A stretch of 22,459 nucleotides of DNA from a virus: positions 1 through 22,459 of the IMG/VR virus record IMGVR_UViG_3300012954_000095; one strand, written 5' to 3'. The position numbers were made by a program, and so were the translations under genes. The notes under the pieces were generated by a model. That model saw only the letters and a program-made list of their open reading frames with translations, did not search any database and was not told the origin of the DNA. Position 1 is the stretch's first letter. The number at the start of each line of letters is the position of its first letter. Below, piece by piece: positions 1 through 8,600 of this stretch.

Positions 1-353
1 ACGCCAGTATCACGCAAATAGTGAATACGAGGGTTTTGAAGATTATCGATAATAGGTGTGAGAACATCTAATCTATGTGAGTTGTTTAAGTTGCAATCAT
101 GATTACCGGTAATAAGTATCGTTTCTCTTAACTTTGCACATTCTGTCAAGAACCATGATATTTCTTTTACTAACTCTGGTGACATCTCAGTTTTAGCATG
201 AGCAATATCTCCAGCTATATAAATAACTGAATCTTCGATTTTATCTTCTTTTACTTGTTTTAAGAATTTTTTGAATACTCCTCTGTATTCTTTGTGTCTT
301 TGGAGATTACGAATATGTAAATCTGCCAAGTGGTAAACTTTATTTATTATCAT
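1..353 (-). CDS. SbcD/Mre11-like (T4 gp47-type) recombination nuclease subunit, N-terminal part
   Basis: This is a calcineurin-like metallophosphoesterase, cut by the window start after 117 codons. The translation shows the metal-binding series in order: DLH at residues 11-13, GDIAH at 48-52 and GNHD near 82-85. That order and spacing fit the SbcD/Mre11 family, including T4 gp47, which pairs with an SbcC/gp46 ATPase to process DNA ends in recombination and replication. The ATG at 353 lies inside the stop of the primase gene (ATGA overlap) and has AAAAGG just upstream, so the two proteins should be co-translated. No SbcC partner is visible; I would expect it further downstream, beyond position 1. 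A general phage phosphoesterase is the alternative, but the primase neighbour favours the recombination nuclease. Confidence 0.85.
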   Translation of the reverse strand, partial: MIINKVYHLADLHIRNLQRHKEYRGVFKKFLKQVKEDKIEDSVIYIAGDIAHAKTEMSPELVKEISWFLTECAKLRETILITGNHDCNLNNSHRLDVLTPIIDNLQNPRIHYLRDTG

Positions 354-1294
354 AAACCTTTTAATTTTTGTGATATTATATCACCGAAACCAGTCTCTTC
401 TGTTTCTTTAAGTTTTGAATTAATTTTAGAGAATCCCATATCAGATGCATCTTTATCTGATGGTTTAATGTTTTTGGTATTTATTCCTTGATTTTGGAAT
501 TGCATAGTATAATATAACGCCTGGTCTTGAGCATCTTTATCTAATAAAATATTAATACTCTTTACACCTTTTTTATATATAGTATCGTTTAAAGTTTTTG
601 GTATAAACTTACCAAGTAAAGGAATTGAATTTCTTTTAACTGCCATAGCATCAAAAATACCTTCTACTAATGTAATTGGTTCATCCCAATTTATTTGGTT
701 TTCGAACATGATAACATTTTTAGAAACTGGCGGATTTTTGTATTTAAACTTTTCCTCAGAAAATACAGACCTCGCGATGAAGTAATTGAGTCTGTTGTCT
801 CTATCATAAGAAGGAATAATAATACGATTGGCATAATGACCAGAATCACAATAACCGATATTATATCTTCTAATATCCTCGGTAGTGATGCCTCGTTGTT
901 TAGCATATTCCTTCACCTTTCTGAATAAGGGATTGATTTTTCCCTTTGGTTCTTTTAGTAGTGATTGAAACTCATTAGGTAACCTTAGTTCTACCTTTTC
1001 ATCTTCGGTATCTTTACTATAAACAACATAATCATCACCATAGATTTCGTATATTTTCTTTAATTTACGAGAATCTACATGAAGTCGTTTTAGTAACCTT
1101 TGTATCTTTCTACCCTTTGCATCACAAACCCAACAATGCCAGTATTGAGTTTTTAAGTTAATTTGTAACTTTTTCTTATGGTGATGACAAAATGGACAAT
1201 AGTGAGCTTGTTCATCATTTTTCATTGATGTACCAACTCCCAACACCTCATCTAATATTGTTATAACCTGTTGTTTATCGTGGTGTGCAAGCAT
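350..1294 (-). CDS. DnaG-type DNA primase (zinc finger plus TOPRIM)
   Basis: This protein should make RNA primers for phage DNA replication. At 314 aa it is a compact primase without a fused helicase. The N-terminus carries a four-cysteine zinc-binding site (C33, C36, C54, C57), the CHC2-type template-reading finger. A TOPRIM catalytic core follows: VEGIFDAMA with E211 and D215, then LLDKDA with D252 and D254. The segment at 155-196 with RIIIPSYD and FIARSV matches the linker seen in DnaG-like and marine phage primases. The ATG at 1294 follows TAGGT, a weak ribosome binding site. The stop overlaps the next gene start by 4 bp, so expression is coupled to the SbcD-like protein. The replicative helicase is not in this window. 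Domain content is clear; the exact family (DnaG versus T4 gp61-like) is less so. Confidence 0.88.
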   Translation of the reverse strand: MLAHHDKQQVITILDEVLGVGTSMKNDEQAHYCPFCHHHKKKLQINLKTQYWHCWVCDAKGRKIQRLLKRLHVDSRKLKKIYEIYGDDYVVYSKDTEDEKVELRLPNEFQSLLKEPKGKINPLFRKVKEYAKQRGITTEDIRRYNIGYCDSGHYANRIIIPSYDRDNRLNYFIARSVFSEEKFKYKNPPVSKNVIMFENQINWDEPITLVEGIFDAMAVKRNSIPLLGKFIPKTLNDTIYKKGVKSINILLDKDAQDQALYYTMQFQNQGINTKNIKPSDKDASDMGFSKINSKLKETEETGFGDIISQKLKGL

Positions 1295-1333: not shown

Positions 1334-1801
1334 TTAAATATCCAAGTCTTTTCGAAAAAATTTACCTAAAATATTATCGTTGAGAGATAATTTATCCTCT
1401 AAAACCCTATTATTGAATAGTTCTTCTGTCTCATAATAAGTTAATGATTTTGGTGTTTTACAAAATCTTAATATTTTTAATTCTAAAGAATCGTTAATTT
1501 CATCCCTATTATCATCTAATTTTGCTACTTCGTTTTCATGAAACCATAGTTGTACTGATGGATTTGAAGAACGATAATCTAACCATTTAGATTCTTTTAC
1601 CACTTTTCTTTTTCGTTTATAACCTTTAAGTGGTGGTAAAGTTCTTTTTGCATATAAGGATTTTTTTCCTATATAATATTCACCTGTTTGGTGATTTGTT
1701 ATTTTGTAAATAAATCCGATAGTCCCCTCGGGCATATCAGAAATTTCTGTTATTGGTCTACCTTGGTATGTCCATCCCATAGTTAAAAATCTTGAAATCA
1801 T
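1334..1801 (-). CDS. GIY-YIG nuclease, Seg-like free-standing homing endonuclease
   Basis: The 155-aa protein contains a GIY-YIG variant: GFIYKIT at residues 29-35 and YYIGKK at 42-47. The segment SKWLDYRSSN (71-80), the glutamates in TYYETEELF (121-129) and NDNILGKFF (141-149) match the layout of phage Seg-like GIY-YIG nucleases. These usually cut DNA of competing phages and promote their own spread. The start at 1801 has AAGGA 11 nt upstream. It lies 44 bp inside the sulfotransferase gene; the alternative ATG at 1780 would shorten the overlap to 23 bp but has no better ribosome binding site. No separate DNA-binding domain is evident apart from the Lys/Arg-rich stretch at 59-70. The family call is firm; homing activity is inferred. 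Confidence 0.8.
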   Translation of the reverse strand: MISRFLTMGWTYQGRPITEISDMPEGTIGFIYKITNHQTGEYYIGKKSLYAKRTLPPLKGYKRKRKVVKESKWLDYRSSNPSVQLWFHENEVAKLDDNRDEINDSLELKILRFCKTPKSLTYYETEELFNNRVLEDKLSLNDNILGKFFRKDLDI

Positions 1802-2336
1802 TGTAATATGTTTCCTTCACAAAATCCTGCGCCCATCTATTATTCTTATACATTGATAAATAATATTTATTTTGATTTAATAATGGATGTGCATCATAAA
1901 TAGGATTTCTATTTAAATGTTCAAGATTACCTTGAACTTTTATTTTGCTCGAAACTACTTGAAAATCTTCTTTTAAGTTTTCATATTTTCCTATAAAGTT
2001 TACCTTTTTGTTTTCAGTTTTACCTTCATTTATATAATAAGTTTGTGGTAAAAACCAAGTATCATCTAAGTTAATATTTTGGATAAATTCTTTCAAATCT
2101 GGTGAGTACTTATTTTTTCTAATTCCATGTTTCCATGCGGATAAAAATCTTGTATATGGATTTCTTACAAATGTAAATGTAAATAAATCATTTGATGGTA
2201 ATAACCTTATAGAATCGTGTGAAGTTAGAAACTCAGTATTTTTATCAGATTCTAATACTTTGTTAATAGATGTACCACCAGTTTTTGGGATATGGATAAA
2301 TGCCCAATTACTAGAAAGATTGTAGAGTAAACTCAA
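1758..2336 (-). CDS. Sulfotransferase family protein
   Basis: The 192-aa protein has both PAPS-binding signatures of the sulfotransferases. The 5'-phosphosulfate loop HIPKTGGTS is at residues 15-23. The 3'-phosphate motif FVRNPYTRFLSAW is at 56-68, with the expected Arg58 and Ser66. FIGKYENL at 114-121 and the FKIFNY end are typical of the Sulfotransfer_2 type. It should move sulfate from PAPS to a hydroxyl, probably on a sugar; the acceptor cannot be read from sequence. The start is odd. There is no ATG before the PAPS loop, and the best candidate is TTG at 2336, preceded in frame by TAA and CAT with no clear ribosome binding site. Translation therefore probably depends on reinitiation after the 60-aa gene. 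The end overlaps the GIY-YIG gene by 44 bp. The role may be to alter host or virion surface glycans. Confidence 0.82.
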   Translation of the reverse strand: MSLLYNLSSNWAFIHIPKTGGTSINKVLESDKNTEFLTSHDSIRLLPSNDLFTFTFVRNPYTRFLSAWKHGIRKNKYSPDLKEFIQNINLDDTWFLPQTYYINEGKTENKKVNFIGKYENLKEDFQVVSSKIKVQGNLEHLNRNPIYDAHPLLNQNKYYLSMYKNNRWAQDFVKETYYNDFKIFNYGMDIPR

Positions 2337-2339
2337 ATG

Positions 2340-2522
2340 TTAATATTTTACATTATCAGAATATCTGTTCTGATTTAATTTTCCACCTCTTGCATTTGCA
2401 AGTGCCTTTTCGTCTTTATGAAGTTTATTTCCTTCATCTGCAGATATAGGAGTTTTATCCTTGTTAGATTTACCTAACTTGGAAAATTCTGATTTGTTGT
2501 ATAAGTCTTGTATTGAAGCCAT
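2340..2522 (-). CDS. Small lysine-rich hypothetical protein (60 aa)
   Basis: I do not recognise this family. The product is short, hydrophilic and rich in Lys, Asn, Asp and Ser. It has no membrane segment, signal peptide or cysteine, and looks largely disordered. It is likely a real gene because its ATG at 2522 has one of the best ribosome binding sites in the window (AAAGGAG, 8 nt spacing) and a copy of the shared A/T element just upstream. It leads the patch containing the sulfotransferase, whose TTG start is only 3 bp after this stop and in the same frame. A virion or head-associated small protein is possible but unproven. Confidence 0.6.
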   Translation of the reverse strand: MASIQDLYNKSEFSKLGKSNKDKTPISADEGNKLHKDEKALANARGGKLNQNRYSDNVKY

Positions 2523-2541: not shown

Positions 2542-2553
2542 TATATAAATATA
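2542..2553 (-). promoter_or_regulatory. A/T element TATATTTATATA upstream of the 60-aa gene
   Basis: This is an exact copy of the 12-mer on the sense strand, 19 nt before the ATG at 2522 and just upstream of an AAAGGAG ribosome binding site. It occupies most of the 33-bp gap. A promoter role is inferred from recurrence in every gap over 30 bp. Confidence 0.55.
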
Positions 2554-2555
2554 GA

Positions 2556-3650
2556 TTATGTATCGAAACGAACAATAAAGTTCACATCGTAATCTGGTAA
2601 ATTTTTAATTGGTTTTGGTAATTTTGCAACAGCAACCATATTGTTATCTTTATCGTATAAACCAATAGTTGTGATATATGGTGCTAAATATGAACCAGTT
2701 GGGTCTACTGAAGATGAATCAAAATAATCATCCCACGAACCACTTACTGCTGCATTAACTGTACTTTCATAAGTACTTTTTCTTGTAATATCTCTTACTT
2801 CTCTGATTTTTTTAGTTCCAGCTGGGAATGCGTTATTAACTGCAGTAGTTGTAAAATCATAGGAACCACTTAGAACTACATCAACTGCAGATGGGTTTTG
2901 TGAATAATTAAATTGTCCTTCATTCACACTAACCAATACTTCAGTCTCATGTATAGTTTTAGTACTTTTATATTTTAACAAATAGTTATTTCCTATACCA
3001 GCATTTTGTGTAAATACAAATAAACCATCCGAATAAAATACATTACCATAAGCAACTTTATCGATTGATAAACCACCAACTTCAATATCAGTTGTTGTTG
3101 TTAATGTGCCGTTTTCAAAATCAACAACTCCAAAAATAATTGAATCTGAATCGGCTCCAAATGATAATATTGTTGCACCTGTATCTAAATCTAAATCATC
3201 AATTGTTAATGTAAATGTTTCTCCGTCATTATCTTCGATTACTAATTCTGCAGCATGAAAATCTAATGATACAAGTGTATATAAAGGAGTAGTAGATGTT
3301 AATAAAGAATTTCCATCATCAACGAAAGATACAGAATTATCTAAATCAGTAAATTCAATCGAATTGGGTTTTATTTGTTCACCATACTTTTCTTGTGGTA
3401 AAGAAATAATTTGTATTGTATTAGCTCTTGTTCTCTCTGAACCTAGGTTCGCTATATTAGAAGTTCTTCCATAAAAAGTAAAAACATTTGCATCTGCATT
3501 ATAATATTTACTTAATATCGATTTATACTTTGATTTATTGTTTGATATCGAAGCAGATTCTATTGGATATGCACCATTATCAACAGTAAACTCTTTGTAA
3601 ACACTAAAAGAGCGTTTGGTAATATTCGATTTTGGTATTGTTTTTAACAT
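2556..3650 (-). CDS. Probable phage tail or fibre-associated structural protein (364 aa), paralogue of the 401-aa neighbour
   Basis: No enzyme motif is visible. The protein is acidic and rich in Ser, Thr, Asn and beta-prone stretches, as in virion proteins. The C-terminal end shares a clear pattern with the 401-aa protein encoded upstream. TTIGLYDKDNNMVAVAKL here matches TTVGLFNTSNEMIAVAKT there, and both end in a short basic/acidic strand. FNYSQNPS here matches FNYSNNPS there. The segment GNVFYSDGLFVFTQN near residues 202-216 resembles a motif I associate with uncharacterised marine phage structural proteins. The ATG at 3650 has GAGGAA 8 nt upstream. The gene lies between a terminator plus A/T element on one side and the accessory patch on the other, so it may be transcribed separately from the 401-aa gene. 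Structural role: likely; exact part of the virion: unknown. Confidence 0.65.
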   Translation of the reverse strand: MLKTIPKSNITKRSFSVYKEFTVDNGAYPIESASISNNKSKYKSILSKYYNADANVFTFYGRTSNIANLGSERTRANTIQIISLPQEKYGEQIKPNSIEFTDLDNSVSFVDDGNSLLTSTTPLYTLVSLDFHAAELVIEDNDGETFTLTIDDLDLDTGATILSFGADSDSIIFGVVDFENGTLTTTTDIEVGGLSIDKVAYGNVFYSDGLFVFTQNAGIGNNYLLKYKSTKTIHETEVLVSVNEGQFNYSQNPSAVDVVLSGSYDFTTTAVNNAFPAGTKKIREVRDITRKSTYESTVNAAVSGSWDDYFDSSSVDPTGSYLAPYITTIGLYDKDNNMVAVAKLPKPIKNLPDYDVNFIVRFDT

Positions 3651-3663
3651 AGTGTAATTCCTC

Positions 3664-3675
3664 TATATAAATATA
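3664..3675 (-). promoter_or_regulatory. A/T element TATATTTATATA between terminator and 364-aa gene
   Basis: This exact sense-strand copy is only 13 nt from the ATG at 3650 and directly abuts the GAGGAA ribosome binding site. It follows the rho-independent terminator, which is where a fresh promoter would be expected. The very short spacing is awkward: a start 6-7 nt after a -10 box would remove the ribosome binding site from the message. The active part may therefore be the upstream half, or the element may act differently. Confidence 0.5.
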
Positions 3676-3680
3676 TGGAA

Positions 3681-3710
3681 ATAAAAAACCCCATTCACGA
3701 TGGGGTTTGT
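3681..3710 (-). terminator. Rho-independent terminator after the 401-aa gene
   Basis: On the minus strand, AAACCCCAT, a 5-nt loop and ATGGGGTTT form a perfect 9-bp stem (plus-strand arms 3686-3694 and 3700-3708). The stem runs into a stretch of six T followed by ATTT. It lies 27 nt after the 401-aa stop. It is the only strong intrinsic terminator I can see, so it probably marks the end of the long baseplate/tail transcript. Confidence 0.85.
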
Positions 3711-3735
3711 TATGTTTGAAATGTGTACCTACGGT

Positions 3736-4941
3736 TTAGAAATCAAGTTTTACTTTGATTAATACTTCTTTATCAAATGATTTTGGAATTGGTTGTGATG
3801 TTTTAGCCACAGCAATCATTTCATTTGAGGTATTAAATAAACCAACAGTTGTAATAAATGTTCTTGGGTCAGTTTCAAAAGTTGATTCTGCAAATGAACC
3901 ATCTGAACCAGTTACAAATGATGGGTTATTTGAATAGTTAAATTCTCTGTTAGTAGCTCTTACAAAATAGTGAGATGTAGAAACATTTTCTGTTCTTCTT
4001 GCTTCGAAGTCAGCACCTAATTTAATAGATTCAACTAATCTTAATTGATTCTTTGTACTTGCATTTGTTACTAAACTTCCTGCTAAATCTCTACCATGTA
4101 CACTTCCAAGTGAACTTGAAAGAGCAGTTGGGTTAAGTACTATTAATCCTTGGTCAGGATAGAACAATCCAAATCCTTCTCCATTTACACCATAGTTTGT
4201 ATTGATTGTTGCAGCGTTCTCTGTACCTAAGTTAAGTGAACCACTTACAACATTAAATACTCTACCTGCTTTTCCAACTGTATCATCAAATTTCTTTCCA
4301 CTATCATCAATCAATGTAGTTGAACCTAATGAACCACTTAATGTAAGTGACCAGTTTCCAGCATCCATTTTTTCTTTATATCTTCCTCTTGCAACATTGA
4401 TTACATAGATGGCATCTGAATCATGTGTTCCTGCTGTTGATGAAGATACAAATGTAAATTGGCTATCATCTGTTTCTAATAAAATTTGTTTATATTGTGC
4501 ATAAGTTGCTTTTGTTTCTAAAGTGGATGTATCATCACCAGATAATGCTGGTGAACCTAAACCTGTTCTATTTCCATATGCAACTGAAAATTGTATGGAT
4601 GAAGTTGCTGCAGTGTCATAAACATTATAATAATATTTACCACTTGTTGCGGCTACTTGAGCAGATGATGTAAAGAAAGTTGTTAAACTTCCAGTATCTC
4701 CACTCCATAGACCAGTAGTTACTACTTCTACTTTACCTGTGATTTGGTCAAACTCACCAAAACTTTTGTAGATACCATTTGATATCTGACCTCCTGTGCT
4801 ACCTAATTTATCACCACCACTTAAGTACTGGTTGATAATCTGTGTTAATTGTTCAGAAGTATAGTTACCTTGGTTTTCCGATAGGTAAGTAGCTAATTCT
4901 TGAGATAAATTTACTCCTGCTTGTCCTTGTATTGTTGCCAT
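3736..4941 (-). CDS. Probable phage tail or fibre-associated structural protein (401 aa)
   Basis: The family is not assigned to a named function. The N-terminus (1-45) is a polar helical stretch with ATYLSENQGNYTSEQLTQII. The rest is Ser/Thr/Gly-rich and beta-prone, with repeated SGS and GSL turns, as is common in fibre and adhesin proteins. FNYSNNPS and the C-terminal TTVGLFNTSNEMIAVAK pattern are shared with the 364-aa protein, so the two are probably diverged copies. The ATG at 4941 has AGGAAA about 9 nt upstream and lies 17 bp from the previous stop. The gene ends a run of tail genes and is followed by a strong terminator. No cysteine, signal peptide or membrane span is seen. It may attach to the baseplate or form part of a fibre. 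Confidence 0.68.
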   Translation of the reverse strand: MATIQGQAGVNLSQELATYLSENQGNYTSEQLTQIINQYLSGGDKLGSTGGQISNGIYKSFGEFDQITGKVEVVTTGLWSGDTGSLTTFFTSSAQVAATSGKYYYNVYDTAATSSIQFSVAYGNRTGLGSPALSGDDTSTLETKATYAQYKQILLETDDSQFTFVSSSTAGTHDSDAIYVINVARGRYKEKMDAGNWSLTLSGSLGSTTLIDDSGKKFDDTVGKAGRVFNVVSGSLNLGTENAATINTNYGVNGEGFGLFYPDQGLIVLNPTALSSSLGSVHGRDLAGSLVTNASTKNQLRLVESIKLGADFEARRTENVSTSHYFVRATNREFNYSNNPSFVTGSDGSFAESTFETDPRTFITTVGLFNTSNEMIAVAKTSQPIPKSFDKEVLIKVKLDF

Positions 4942-4958
4942 CTTATTATTTTCCTATA

Positions 4959-5588
4959 TTAACTTGGTTGTACATAAGTAACTGTTACTGGTATTGATTG
5001 TGAACCTCCAGTCTCATTACCATATACAGTAATAGTTGTTTTAATTGTTGTTGTAATATTCGGATTAGGAATAAATACAAATGTTAAACCTGTCTCAACA
5101 GCAGCAGTTGTAGTAATTTCATCACCTAAGAATGAAGGTACAGTTCCTGCTCCACTTGATATTCCACTTCCAACAATCGAACCTGCGTTCTTATTAGAAA
5201 GAATTACAGTATATCCACTTTGTGTATTACCACTTGGTGAAGTTGTTGGTGAAAGTTGTACTTGTCCTGAATTTTGGTTGACTGATATTGAAGGGACACC
5301 AAACTCAACTTTAGGAATTTTAGTAGTACCTTTTGGTAAGGTAACTAACTTATATTTTAAAACTTGAGTTTCATCAGGAGATGCTTCAGTAATTGGTATT
5401 GCCTTAATTGCTGAATCATAATATGCACTTCCTTTTGGATGTGCTGGTTCATAAAGGGTATAATCTACTTCGTCATCACCCAAAGCGAACTTTGTGATGT
5501 TTAAACCTTGTCCAGCTGCTAACTTCTCTCTACCCTTCTTAGTAAGAATCGCATCTACTGTGATTTCGGTGTTATCTAAATAAGCCAT
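4959..5588 (-). CDS. Conserved phage structural protein of unknown function (209 aa)
   Basis: The first 65 residues (ITVDAILTKKGREKLAAG near 9-26, then FALGDDEVDYTLYEP) are a conserved start I associate with uncharacterised virion proteins of marine phages. The pattern suggests a baseplate- or tail-joining domain. Residues from about 100 onward are Thr/Ser/Gly-rich and beta-prone, ending in a likely Ig-like strand pattern (ITVYGN...IPVTVTYV). No catalytic motif is seen. The ATG at 5588 has AAGGA 10 nt upstream, and the preceding 69-bp gap holds an exact A/T element, so this gene may start its own transcript. That transcript would include the 401-aa gene and stop at the terminator at 3681-3710. 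Confidence 0.65.
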   Translation of the reverse strand: MAYLDNTEITVDAILTKKGREKLAAGQGLNITKFALGDDEVDYTLYEPAHPKGSAYYDSAIKAIPITEASPDETQVLKYKLVTLPKGTTKIPKVEFGVPSISVNQNSGQVQLSPTTSPSGNTQSGYTVILSNKNAGSIVGSGISSGAGTVPSFLGDEITTTAAVETGLTFVFIPNPNITTTIKTTITVYGNETGGSQSIPVTVTYVQPS

Positions 5589-5657: not shown

Positions 5658-8600
5658 TTAATCTACTTCTAAAATTGGTTCACCACTACCTCTACCCGCA
5701 TCTGATACTCTAAGAGTATTTGGATTAGTTGTAAATGTTTGAACTGGTGCACCACCATCTAAAGTAGTTGATTGTGTTTGTTTAGAGCCATTAAAAAATG
5801 AGTTCTCTAAACCAGTTGTTAAATCTGTTGTGTTTCTATAATGTGTTGGGAAATATCCATCTAATGGAGTTACAGTAACTATATCTCCACCACTTGGTGT
5901 CGATGATTCTAATCCATTAGAACCTGTCCATGGTAATATAGATACCTTATGTCTAAATTTAGTAACTGTTTCAACTTCCCTACCCAATGAAGAATCATTT
6001 GGATTAATATTTTTTGGTATATCTTCTGTAAAAGATTGTTTTAGTAAAAATACTTTTACTCTATCTTTTACGATATTATTGTTAAATAATCTTGTTCTCA
6101 GTACAGTTCCATCTTTTCCATATAAACCAAATCCTGCTACTGATAGTGAATCAGGTTCCATTCCAACTGATTGATATTGAGTAGATTCAAATTGTCCTTG
6201 TACTGAACCAGTCACTTGAGCATCAACTCTTATAGAAATACCACCCATATCGGAACCTGAATTTCTTGTTATTGTTCCTTCTAATGTTGTATTATCAGTA
6301 TTTGTTATAGTACCTGCAAAATCTGATTTTGTACCTGTTAAAACTGTATTTGATTCTGCATCTACAATACCTGAATATTGTGGGTTATCTCCTTCAAGAG
6401 TTATTTCTTGAGATGCAGTTAATAATGCATTATATTGTGGGTTTGTAGAAATAACATTTACATCTTGTTCTACATCTATTGATGAAGTAAGTGAACTAAG
6501 TGTACCACTTGGTTTTGTCCATTTAGTTTTACTTCTTTCTAATACATGGGGTTCAATTAATAATCCACTTGAAACTTTTGCTCTTGCAGGTACAAGTGAT
6601 TCTAAAGTTTTGAAAAGTGATTTATCAATATATCTTACTAATTGAATATATTCGTGTAAATTTAAAGTATATCTACTAAAATAATAATTTCTTAATGTTT
6701 TTAAATCAGTATATTCATCTGAGTATTCATCTGCGGGATTACCGATATAATTGTCAATATTAAAATCACCTAAACTTTTTACGATATCTAAGTTAATTTC
6801 TTTTATTGGAGAAAAGAATAAACCTAATCTGTTTGAATCAACTGGTGATTGGTCAAATGATTTTTTGGTTGCTCTTTGTCTATATGATAAATCAATTAAT
6901 TTTGTTTGAGTTTCAAATCTTACTTTATTAGCAAAATTAAATCCTGTTGAAGGTACATTTGCCGTTACATCTCTATCATATGGAATGTATTGATAAGGAT
7001 AAGTTGTATTATTATCAAAATTACTTGCTGTTGAAAATGCCGAATATGTTGATGTTACTGCAACATTTTTGATTGCTGTATCTCCACTTGAATGTCTATT
7101 CTTTGGATATTCAAAATCATTTCTAAAGAATAAATCATGAGTAGAAGCAGATATGTGGTTACCATCAATTGCTTCAGGCATTAATGTATGGTTTTCTATT
7201 CTTGATTGAGATAATGGTGTTCTCCATAATCTAAATTCATCAACTGAACCTACAAATGTTTTACCTAAATGTAATTCACTACCACTTGTCCAAGCTTTGG
7301 TTGTAGCAGTTAAAGATGAACTTGTCTCACTTCTAATTCTTCCTTGGAATCCCTCTTTTACAAAAACTTCAAATGTATCTGTACTACCACTTGTTCTGTT
7401 AACAACAATATGTGTGTACTCATCATTAAATAATGGTATTGTTTCTGTACTCGCTGAATCTGGCCCAACTGTAAGTTGTACTTTTGCAAGTGAACCAGTA
7501 TCTTTTAAAATATCTAATGATAAATTTGAACCACTTAAAATTTGATGGTCTTGTCTATTTTCTGTGTTTAATCTTATTTCAATAGAATTAGGCCAATCGT
7601 TACTTAAACCACTATCATATTGTTTCCATGGTACTATAATTGAACTTCCACTTACTAATTCTATAGCCGCAGTTCTATCTTCAAAAGTAAACTGTGTAGT
7701 ACCTGTTTGAGTTGGGTCTTTTGGCCCACCAAATTCCATTATTGTTAATAAAGAATTAGGTACTCCATAACAACTCATGGCAGCATGTAGTGCTCTTTTA
7801 GTTCCTTTGTGTTTATTCAGATATGGTAAATTATTTAATAATCTTCTCCAAATTTGATGTTGTCTATCTTTTGGTGTCAATACTGATTTTTGACTTCCAT
7901 CTCCTCTTGTCTCTTTTTCTTTGTTCCAATATCCAAATGCATATTCCCAAAGTAATTGACTTTCAGCACCTGAATCTGCATTAAATCCAAATGATTCCAA
8001 TAAATGATAAACTAAATCATCTTTTAAACCAACATCATATTTGTGTTCTAATTTTTTAGAACGAGATATTCCTTTAATATGTGTATGTAAAATATCAAAA
8101 TGTTGACCAATCATATCGAAGAACAATGTAAACTCATCGTTCTTGTCATCCAATTTTATATACTCTGGTAAATTAAATGATAATCTTGATGGATTATGAG
8201 AATCATAATATTGAGATGAAGAAACAATACTTTCATACCAACCTGATACAGATAAATCATTTGAAGCTGATAGTTCGTTTAATCCTGCACCAGGATATGT
8301 TAAAGAACCAGTTTCATTGTATAGATACTTTTCAAAAGAATCAAATCCTTTTTTAACATCATTAATTTGTTTTTGTAATTTAGTTTTTTGATTTGATAAA
8401 GAAACAGTAGAAACTTTTGTATCAATTTCATCTATTTTACTATTATACGATTCTATTAATTTAACTTTATAGAAAAAGTTTTCACTTCTTTCTTCTGCAG
8501 ATGAATATTTTACAAACTCTTCCCAATTGTAAACCTCATCACCATATGGTAAAACTAAATTAGCAGAACCACTATATTCTTCAAATAATTTTTCTTTTCT

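Follow-up and report, generated by a model that had tools for sequence, protein, structure and literature searches.

Sulfotransferases of the Sulfotransfer_2 family (PF03567) and their occurrence in phages are already known. The phage and viral sulfotransferases collected in phrog_3347 belong to the same family as the protein described here, and relatives among predicted viral structures (BFVD) come from Ralstonia phage phiRSL1, Prochlorococcus phage P-SSM7 and Synechococcus and Roseobacter phages. The available part of one paper states that the biological role of sulfotransferases in phage genomes is unclear (PMC10580990), and among the titles and abstract beginnings listed in searches of open-licence literature, none announces experimental work on such an enzyme from a phage. 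Proteins of the family are also encoded by Stenotrophomonas phage DLP6 and Pelagibacter phage Mosig.

Another well-described way in which phages act on glycans is seroconversion, in which glucosyl- and acetyltransferases encoded by the phage change the O-antigen. The sulfotransferase would be like these enzymes if its acceptor were the host envelope, where the receptor would be altered and later phages shut out; however, its chemistry and its position beside tail genes are different. What is added here is a conserved, swapping sulfotransferase locus in one phage lineage.

The window, i.e., the whole stretch of DNA that was analyzed, is a single viral record (22,459 bases) that contains one sulfotransferase copy, and its main genes are on the minus strand. 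The sulfotransferase gene (1758..2336, minus strand) has a TTG start and encodes a 192-aa protein that matches PF03567 at 1.3e-14 (55.4 bits, curated cut-off 22), the sole Pfam family to match it at E 0.1, and phrog_3347, labelled 'Galactose-3-O-sulfotransferase', at 8.6e-18 (66.1 bits). Both scores are far beyond chance, and so they confirm the sequence-only reading that a sulfotransferase is encoded here. Galactose-3-O as the acceptor would follow from the phrog_3347 label, i.e., from a profile match, and this profile is matched by all 77 rows of a wider alignment that combines the alleles from the same genomic slot in related phages with 13 cellular or other viral relatives. Compared with PF03567, the protein has an above-cut-off score, both PAPS motifs and the conserved His, but it is shorter than the 252-position profile and comes from a bacterial virus.

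The same reading had both PAPS motifs and the key Arg and Ser intact, and they are present. The first motif, HIPKTGGTS (residues 15-23; codons 2268..2294, minus strand), is presumably the one that binds the 5'-phosphosulfate of PAPS; VRNPYTRFLS (residues 57-66; codons 2139..2168, minus strand) is the 3'-phosphate-binding motif and contains Arg58 and Ser66. In a slot alignment of 65 different alleles, taken from the two samples of loci described below and including that of the window and one short allele (L062), 20 positions are identical in all 65. They are H15, P17, K18, T19 and G21 in the first motif, V57, R58, N59, P60 and S66 in the second, and H40, Q98, E119, N142, N144, Y159, Y177, D180, F181 and Y186; G20, T22 and S23 of the first motif differ in seven to nine rows. 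In the 77-row alignment R58, N59, P60, S66, E119 and Y186 are invariant, and H15, K18 and H40 occur in at least 90% of the rows. His40 (codon 2217..2219, minus strand) is a candidate catalytic base; in a profile alignment it falls on the conserved His of the cytosolic sulfotransferase SULT7A1 (5x2b, E 1.2e-5), which we take to be the catalytic base of that enzyme. Loss of key residues in relatives, which would have spoken against an active enzyme, was looked for and none was found among the 65 slot alleles.

A sequence search of the PDB with the window protein alone gave a best E of 0.23, so only profile and fold comparisons are informative. The AlphaFold2 model of the protein has a mean pLDDT of 92.4 and a pTM of 0.88. 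Foldseek matches to the PDB were weak (best E 8.7e-3, with none of 242 at 0.001 or below). In the VIA comparison each of the 50 entries listed has a title that names a sulfotransferase, with Z from 10.9 to 8.1, middling values of a kind that is common. A heparan-sulfate 2-O-sulfotransferase heads the list (Z 10.9, 159 residues, 3.1 Å), followed by a heparan-sulfate 6-O-sulfotransferase (Z 9.9, 162 residues, 3.8 Å), and small-molecule and peptide sulfotransferases are included too. The predicted fold is like that of the heparan-sulfate 2-O- and 6-O-enzymes (3f5f, 4ndz, 5t03 and 5t05, the nearest solved structures) over 158-162 residues, but the window protein is just 12-18% identical to them. 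Among viral models (BFVD) there were 22 matches at E of 0.001 or below, the top one being the sulfotransferase-like protein of Ralstonia phage phiRSL1 (6.1e-11).

The sulfotransferase is under purifying selection. Its dN/dS (Nei-Gojobori) is 0.06-0.41 in all 17 chosen pairs and, of the 16 pairs measured for both genes, 14 have a lower value for the sulfotransferase than for the adjoining 364-aa fibre. With key residues in all 65 alleles, a predicted sulfotransferase fold and purifying selection, the earlier judgement that the enzyme is probably active appears sound.

The gene was also described as sitting among tail and replication genes, and this holds. Three fibre-like tail genes precede it on the minus strand: a strongly conserved 209-aa gene (4959..5588; weak phrog_1780 match), a 401-aa gene (3736..4941; assigned by synteny in relatives) and a variable 364-aa gene (2556..3650; assigned by synteny and weak tail matches). 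Just upstream of the sulfotransferase is a conserved 60-aa gene, here called S60 (2340..2522, minus strand), which neither Pfam nor PHROG profiles match at E 0.1. The sulfotransferase stop falls within the annotated frame of a SegE-type GIY-YIG gene (1334..1801, minus strand; PF19835 1.2e-23; phrog_447), the start of which therefore overlaps the sulfotransferase end, although an alternative GIY-YIG start at Met8 (1780) is possible. Next is a DnaG-like primase gene (350..1294, minus strand; phrog_47 8.7e-48). Other minus-strand genes of the window encode a CHAP-domain protein, gp25- and gp6-like baseplate proteins, a 1,776-aa protein and a DNA polymerase III-like protein, the gene for the last being truncated by the window end.

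A search with the sulfotransferase produced 79 viral loci, including three from the first draw, and in 73 of them the gene has the neighbours of the same slot. One more (L079) is a fragment at a contig end with the same downstream genes as the slot, and five (L077, L078, L080, L081 and L082; 23-36% identity) have none of the slot neighbours. A sample blind to the sulfotransferase was drawn by primase, taking the best 80 of 188 relatives. Sixty-five of these records have a whole sulfotransferase, four have one cut by the contig end (L062, L073, L074 and L079), six are without it, and five (L113, L157, L171, L174 and L176) are unreadable because contig ends are too near. Seventy-six of the primase-drawn loci are new, and the slot is readable in 71 of them, 65 with and six without the gene, but several records are near-copies of one phage and so the counts are not independent. 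The six absences imply that the sulfotransferase is dispensable.

In five of the six records without the gene (L159, L161, L162, L175 and L178), S60 directly abuts GIY-YIG. In the sixth (L134), a 234-aa frame without a Pfam match (3337-4041) and an 85-aa S60-like frame precede GIY-YIG; its primase sits within a branch of sulfotransferase carriers, so L134 probably lost the gene. The GIY-YIG frame of L134 (at 4397) opens with MISKFLTM, which by eye resembles the MISRFLTM that overlaps the sulfotransferase end in the window and is perhaps a scar of the lost gene. The same gene order with an empty slot is also found in farther phages, L279 (by BLASTP), L280 and L281 (the last two as read from L285 and L286), whose primases are 54-58% identical to that of the window. 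A quick primase tree has 72 rows, 67 of known state (55 with the sulfotransferase and 12 without), and four changes of state. This number fits a single gain and a few losses, although gain and loss are indistinguishable from the count, and one carrier on a long branch (L004) is not grouped with the other carriers against L279-L281.

At least one swap of the sulfotransferase between phages has taken place. At the DNA level the window and L047 are fully identical in the 209-aa gene (100%) and share 92% over the last part of the 1,776-aa gene, 88% and 80% in the two remaining fibre genes, 82% in S60 and 85% in GIY-YIG, but only 66% in the sulfotransferase. The fibre data make the two phages sisters (support 98/96 from the 364-aa gene, and an unstarred 83/92 when the 209- and 401-aa genes are combined), whereas the sulfotransferase data reject this pairing (AU p 2.1e-5). 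Instead, the sulfotransferase tree groups the window with L002, L007 and L008 (support 100/100), a grouping that the fibre data reject (p 0.0017 and 3.5e-45). L059 and L061 display the reverse case, with nearly the same sulfotransferase (dS 0.14) between flanks with a dS of 0.66-1.22. A special recombination hot spot at the sulfotransferase was considered but is not proposed, since mixing is general at this locus: across 49 phages its distances correlate with those of other genes at 0.43-0.66 (Spearman), and GIY-YIG (0.15-0.44) and S60 (0.15-0.52) have values that are no higher.

On the coding strand, the 60 nt ahead of the 209-aa fibre gene contain the word TATTTATA in 49 of 50 loci; the corresponding figures are 53 of 61 for the 364-aa fibre gene and 39 of 63 for S60, with 0.2-2.5 loci expected from shuffling. 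None of 58 loci has it in this interval before the 401-aa fibre gene, none of 64 before the sulfotransferase, none of 64 before GIY-YIG and none of 59 before the primase. In the window it appears on the plus strand as TATAAATA at 218, 2544, 3666, 5620, 18212 and 21334, and five of these six copies are 16-32 nt ahead of a minus-strand gene start. We take the window word, TATAAATA on the plus strand and TATTTATA on the coding strand, to be the reverse complement of the T4 late consensus. The copy at 2544..2551 (minus strand) is 22 nt before S60 and looks like a late promoter. A phage moron, as an independent transcription unit, would have a promoter and a terminator to itself; no promoter-like word of the two types examined, TATTTATA and sigma-70-like, was seen for the sulfotransferase, and sigma-70-like sites before it are rarer than in shuffles (14 versus 20.6). 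We infer that TATTTATA is a late promoter that would serve both S60 and the sulfotransferase.

The sulfotransferase start codon (window 2334-2336) is TTG in 56 of 64 alleles and GTG in the other eight, never ATG, and no allele of the 64 has an in-frame ATG within the first 20 codons or a Shine-Dalgarno-like word within 20 nt upstream. The neighbouring genes start with ATG in most loci. Of 113 loci, 111 have a Shine-Dalgarno-like word before the 209-aa fibre gene, but just nine of 130 have one before the primase (both counts take in near-copies), and so the lack of this word alone is no proof of weak translation. The conserved weak start suggests either a low dose of the enzyme or coupling of its translation to S60.

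A sulfotransferase of this type needs PAPS, and a phage-encoded supply was considered. Five of 14 large records tested have a divergent APS-kinase-like gene (L185 2988-3461, L186 2959-3429, L187 2777-3247, L188 2893-3363 and L189 2744-3217). The four such proteins that were scanned match PF01583 at 53-72 bits but stay under the NCBIfam cut-offs, and the best solved relative is 5cb6 (2.5e-13); as a control, the Pfam kinase search was positive in 11 of 14 well-known genomes. The gene is widespread in viral contigs (360 relatives, of which the best 80 were retained). Thirteen of 17 kinase-bearing records are without PF03567, which is present in four of the ten that have the primase of this lineage. 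The kinase distribution does not track the sulfotransferase, and phage-made PAPS was dropped as support, although the kinase-like gene might add PAPS. By eye, an NMNAT-like frame adjoins the kinase or is one gene off in L185, L186, L187 and L189, the frame of L189 having also been scanned.

PF03567 is single-copy in all ten of the 14 records that have it, and a second type of sulfotransferase (PF13469) was above the cut-off in none of 25 records and beneath it in one. A 274-aa frame beside the kinase of L186 that looked motif-like by eye has no family match and no BLASTP similarity to the window protein. In L003 a 2OG-Fe(II) oxygenase-like gene (6947-7486; weak Pfam matches, below the cut-off) comes immediately after the primase.

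By the gp6-like protein, the nearest cultured phages are listed as phages of Microcystis (41.7% identity) and Flavobacterium (37.6%). Nine of the 17 genes in the window have a Shine-Dalgarno-like word before them, as against 2 of 17 for a control stretch; in the Microcystis phage Mel-JY01 the count is 14 of 40 genes and in the Flavobacterium phage immuto one of 53. According to the available parts of two papers, Bacteroidia seldom use such words (PMC6847099, PMC9976891), and therefore a Flavobacterium-like host is doubtful.

The family, the conserved active-site residues, the predicted fold, purifying selection, the fixed place and one swap are direct observations, and upon them we infer an activity, late and low expression, a glycan acceptor and a purpose. 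The most likely product is a late, low-level glycan O-sulfotransferase, with host-envelope glycans as the most likely acceptor and virion glycans as a less likely one. Host PAPS would be bound via HIPKTGGTS and Arg58/Ser66, and His40, the probable base, would activate an acceptor hydroxyl so that the sulfuryl group moves onto a glycan. Since the gene appears to be transcribed with the tail genes and translated from a conserved weak start, expression would be expected late and in small amounts. Because the nearest structures are those of glycan enzymes and the gene is beside tail genes, an envelope or virion glycan is a likely acceptor. A sulfated envelope glycan could then make the infected cell surface, or its debris, a poorer receptor for progeny and rival phages. 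That the enzyme is, in full, a late, low-dose, PAPS-dependent O-sulfotransferase that weakens the receptor by sulfating a host-envelope glycan has, in our judgement, somewhat less than an even chance. A broader version, in which a polymorphic, swapped and near-fixed glycan sulfotransferase of the late tail module, its dose held low by the conserved non-ATG start, sulfates host surfaces or virions and controls re-adsorption and competition, is rather unlikely.

The late position suits a change to the virion more naturally than a change to the envelope before lysis, and this counts against the envelope reading. The phage might instead sulfate itself, on glycans (or tyrosines) of the fibres encoded upstream, and so alter adsorption or stability. 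In the lineage the sulfotransferase follows directly after the three fibre-like genes and S60, apparently shares their transcription, and has distances that track those of the 364-aa fibre (Spearman 0.66) and of the 401-aa fibre (0.65); however, the primase is tracked equally well (0.66), relatives without the sulfotransferase retain the same fibre genes, and no fibre glycans are known here. We consider virion sulfation unlikely. An intracellular target, whether a small molecule, a nucleotide, DNA or a protein, is a quite improbable acceptor. The superfamily has diverse acceptors, as the small-molecule and peptide enzymes in the VIA list illustrate, the primase is the second gene downstream, and the available part of one paper suspects nucleotide or protein modification by viral sulfotransferases (PMC10829341); yet the best structural matches are glycan enzymes and the gene is placed among late tail genes.

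The sequence-only reading saw in this locus an acquired host-modification gene beside a mobile nuclease, and both descriptions need revision. Recent host-derived cargo, carried by or hitch-hiking with the GIY-YIG nuclease, would explain the adjacent GIY-YIG gene and the relatives with an empty site. However, GIY-YIG is present without the sulfotransferase in all six empty-slot records of the primase sample, in L279-L281, in Mel-JY01, where a tail gene, GIY-YIG and primase are consecutive, and in immuto, where GIY-YIG comes after tail genes. Nuclease and sulfotransferase thus do not travel together as nuclease cargo, and the GIY-YIG genes standing beside empty slots speak against hitch-hiking. 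GIY-YIG and primase form a conserved pair instead, kept by phages with an empty slot, although the pair is not universal since BLASTP at 1e-3 detected no GIY-YIG in L282 and L283, which are more distant again. A tree built from 94 sulfotransferases places the 64 slot copies together in a single deep branch (support 99, starred), and its only other rows are L038 and L052, whose contigs stop short of GIY-YIG. A homologue search had been proposed, and it found relatives as same-slot copies in phages, but not a close host donor: in one scan of genome contigs the best of 26 cellular loci is 29% identical (E 4e-20), the remainder are 20-38% identical except for one 22-residue match at 64%, and none of the 26 has the slot neighbours. 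A tblastn search of 50,697 phage records gave three weak matches to the protein (26-35% identity). With the gene near-fixed in the lineage, and only four changes required by the 67 rows of known state in the primase tree, recent cargo is very improbable; as judged from these sequences, the sulfotransferase has long belonged to this phage lineage.

Several papers describe sulfotransferase genes in phages, but with no role assigned to them. In this lineage the gene has one place and forms one clade, some relatives have an empty site, and an allele has been swapped naturally between close phages, so a comparison of phages whose main difference is the sulfotransferase could serve to test its role. 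If sulfation of the host surface, or of the phage's own virions, controls re-adsorption and competition, it would be a sulfate-based counterpart of seroconversion in a whole lineage of tailed phages.
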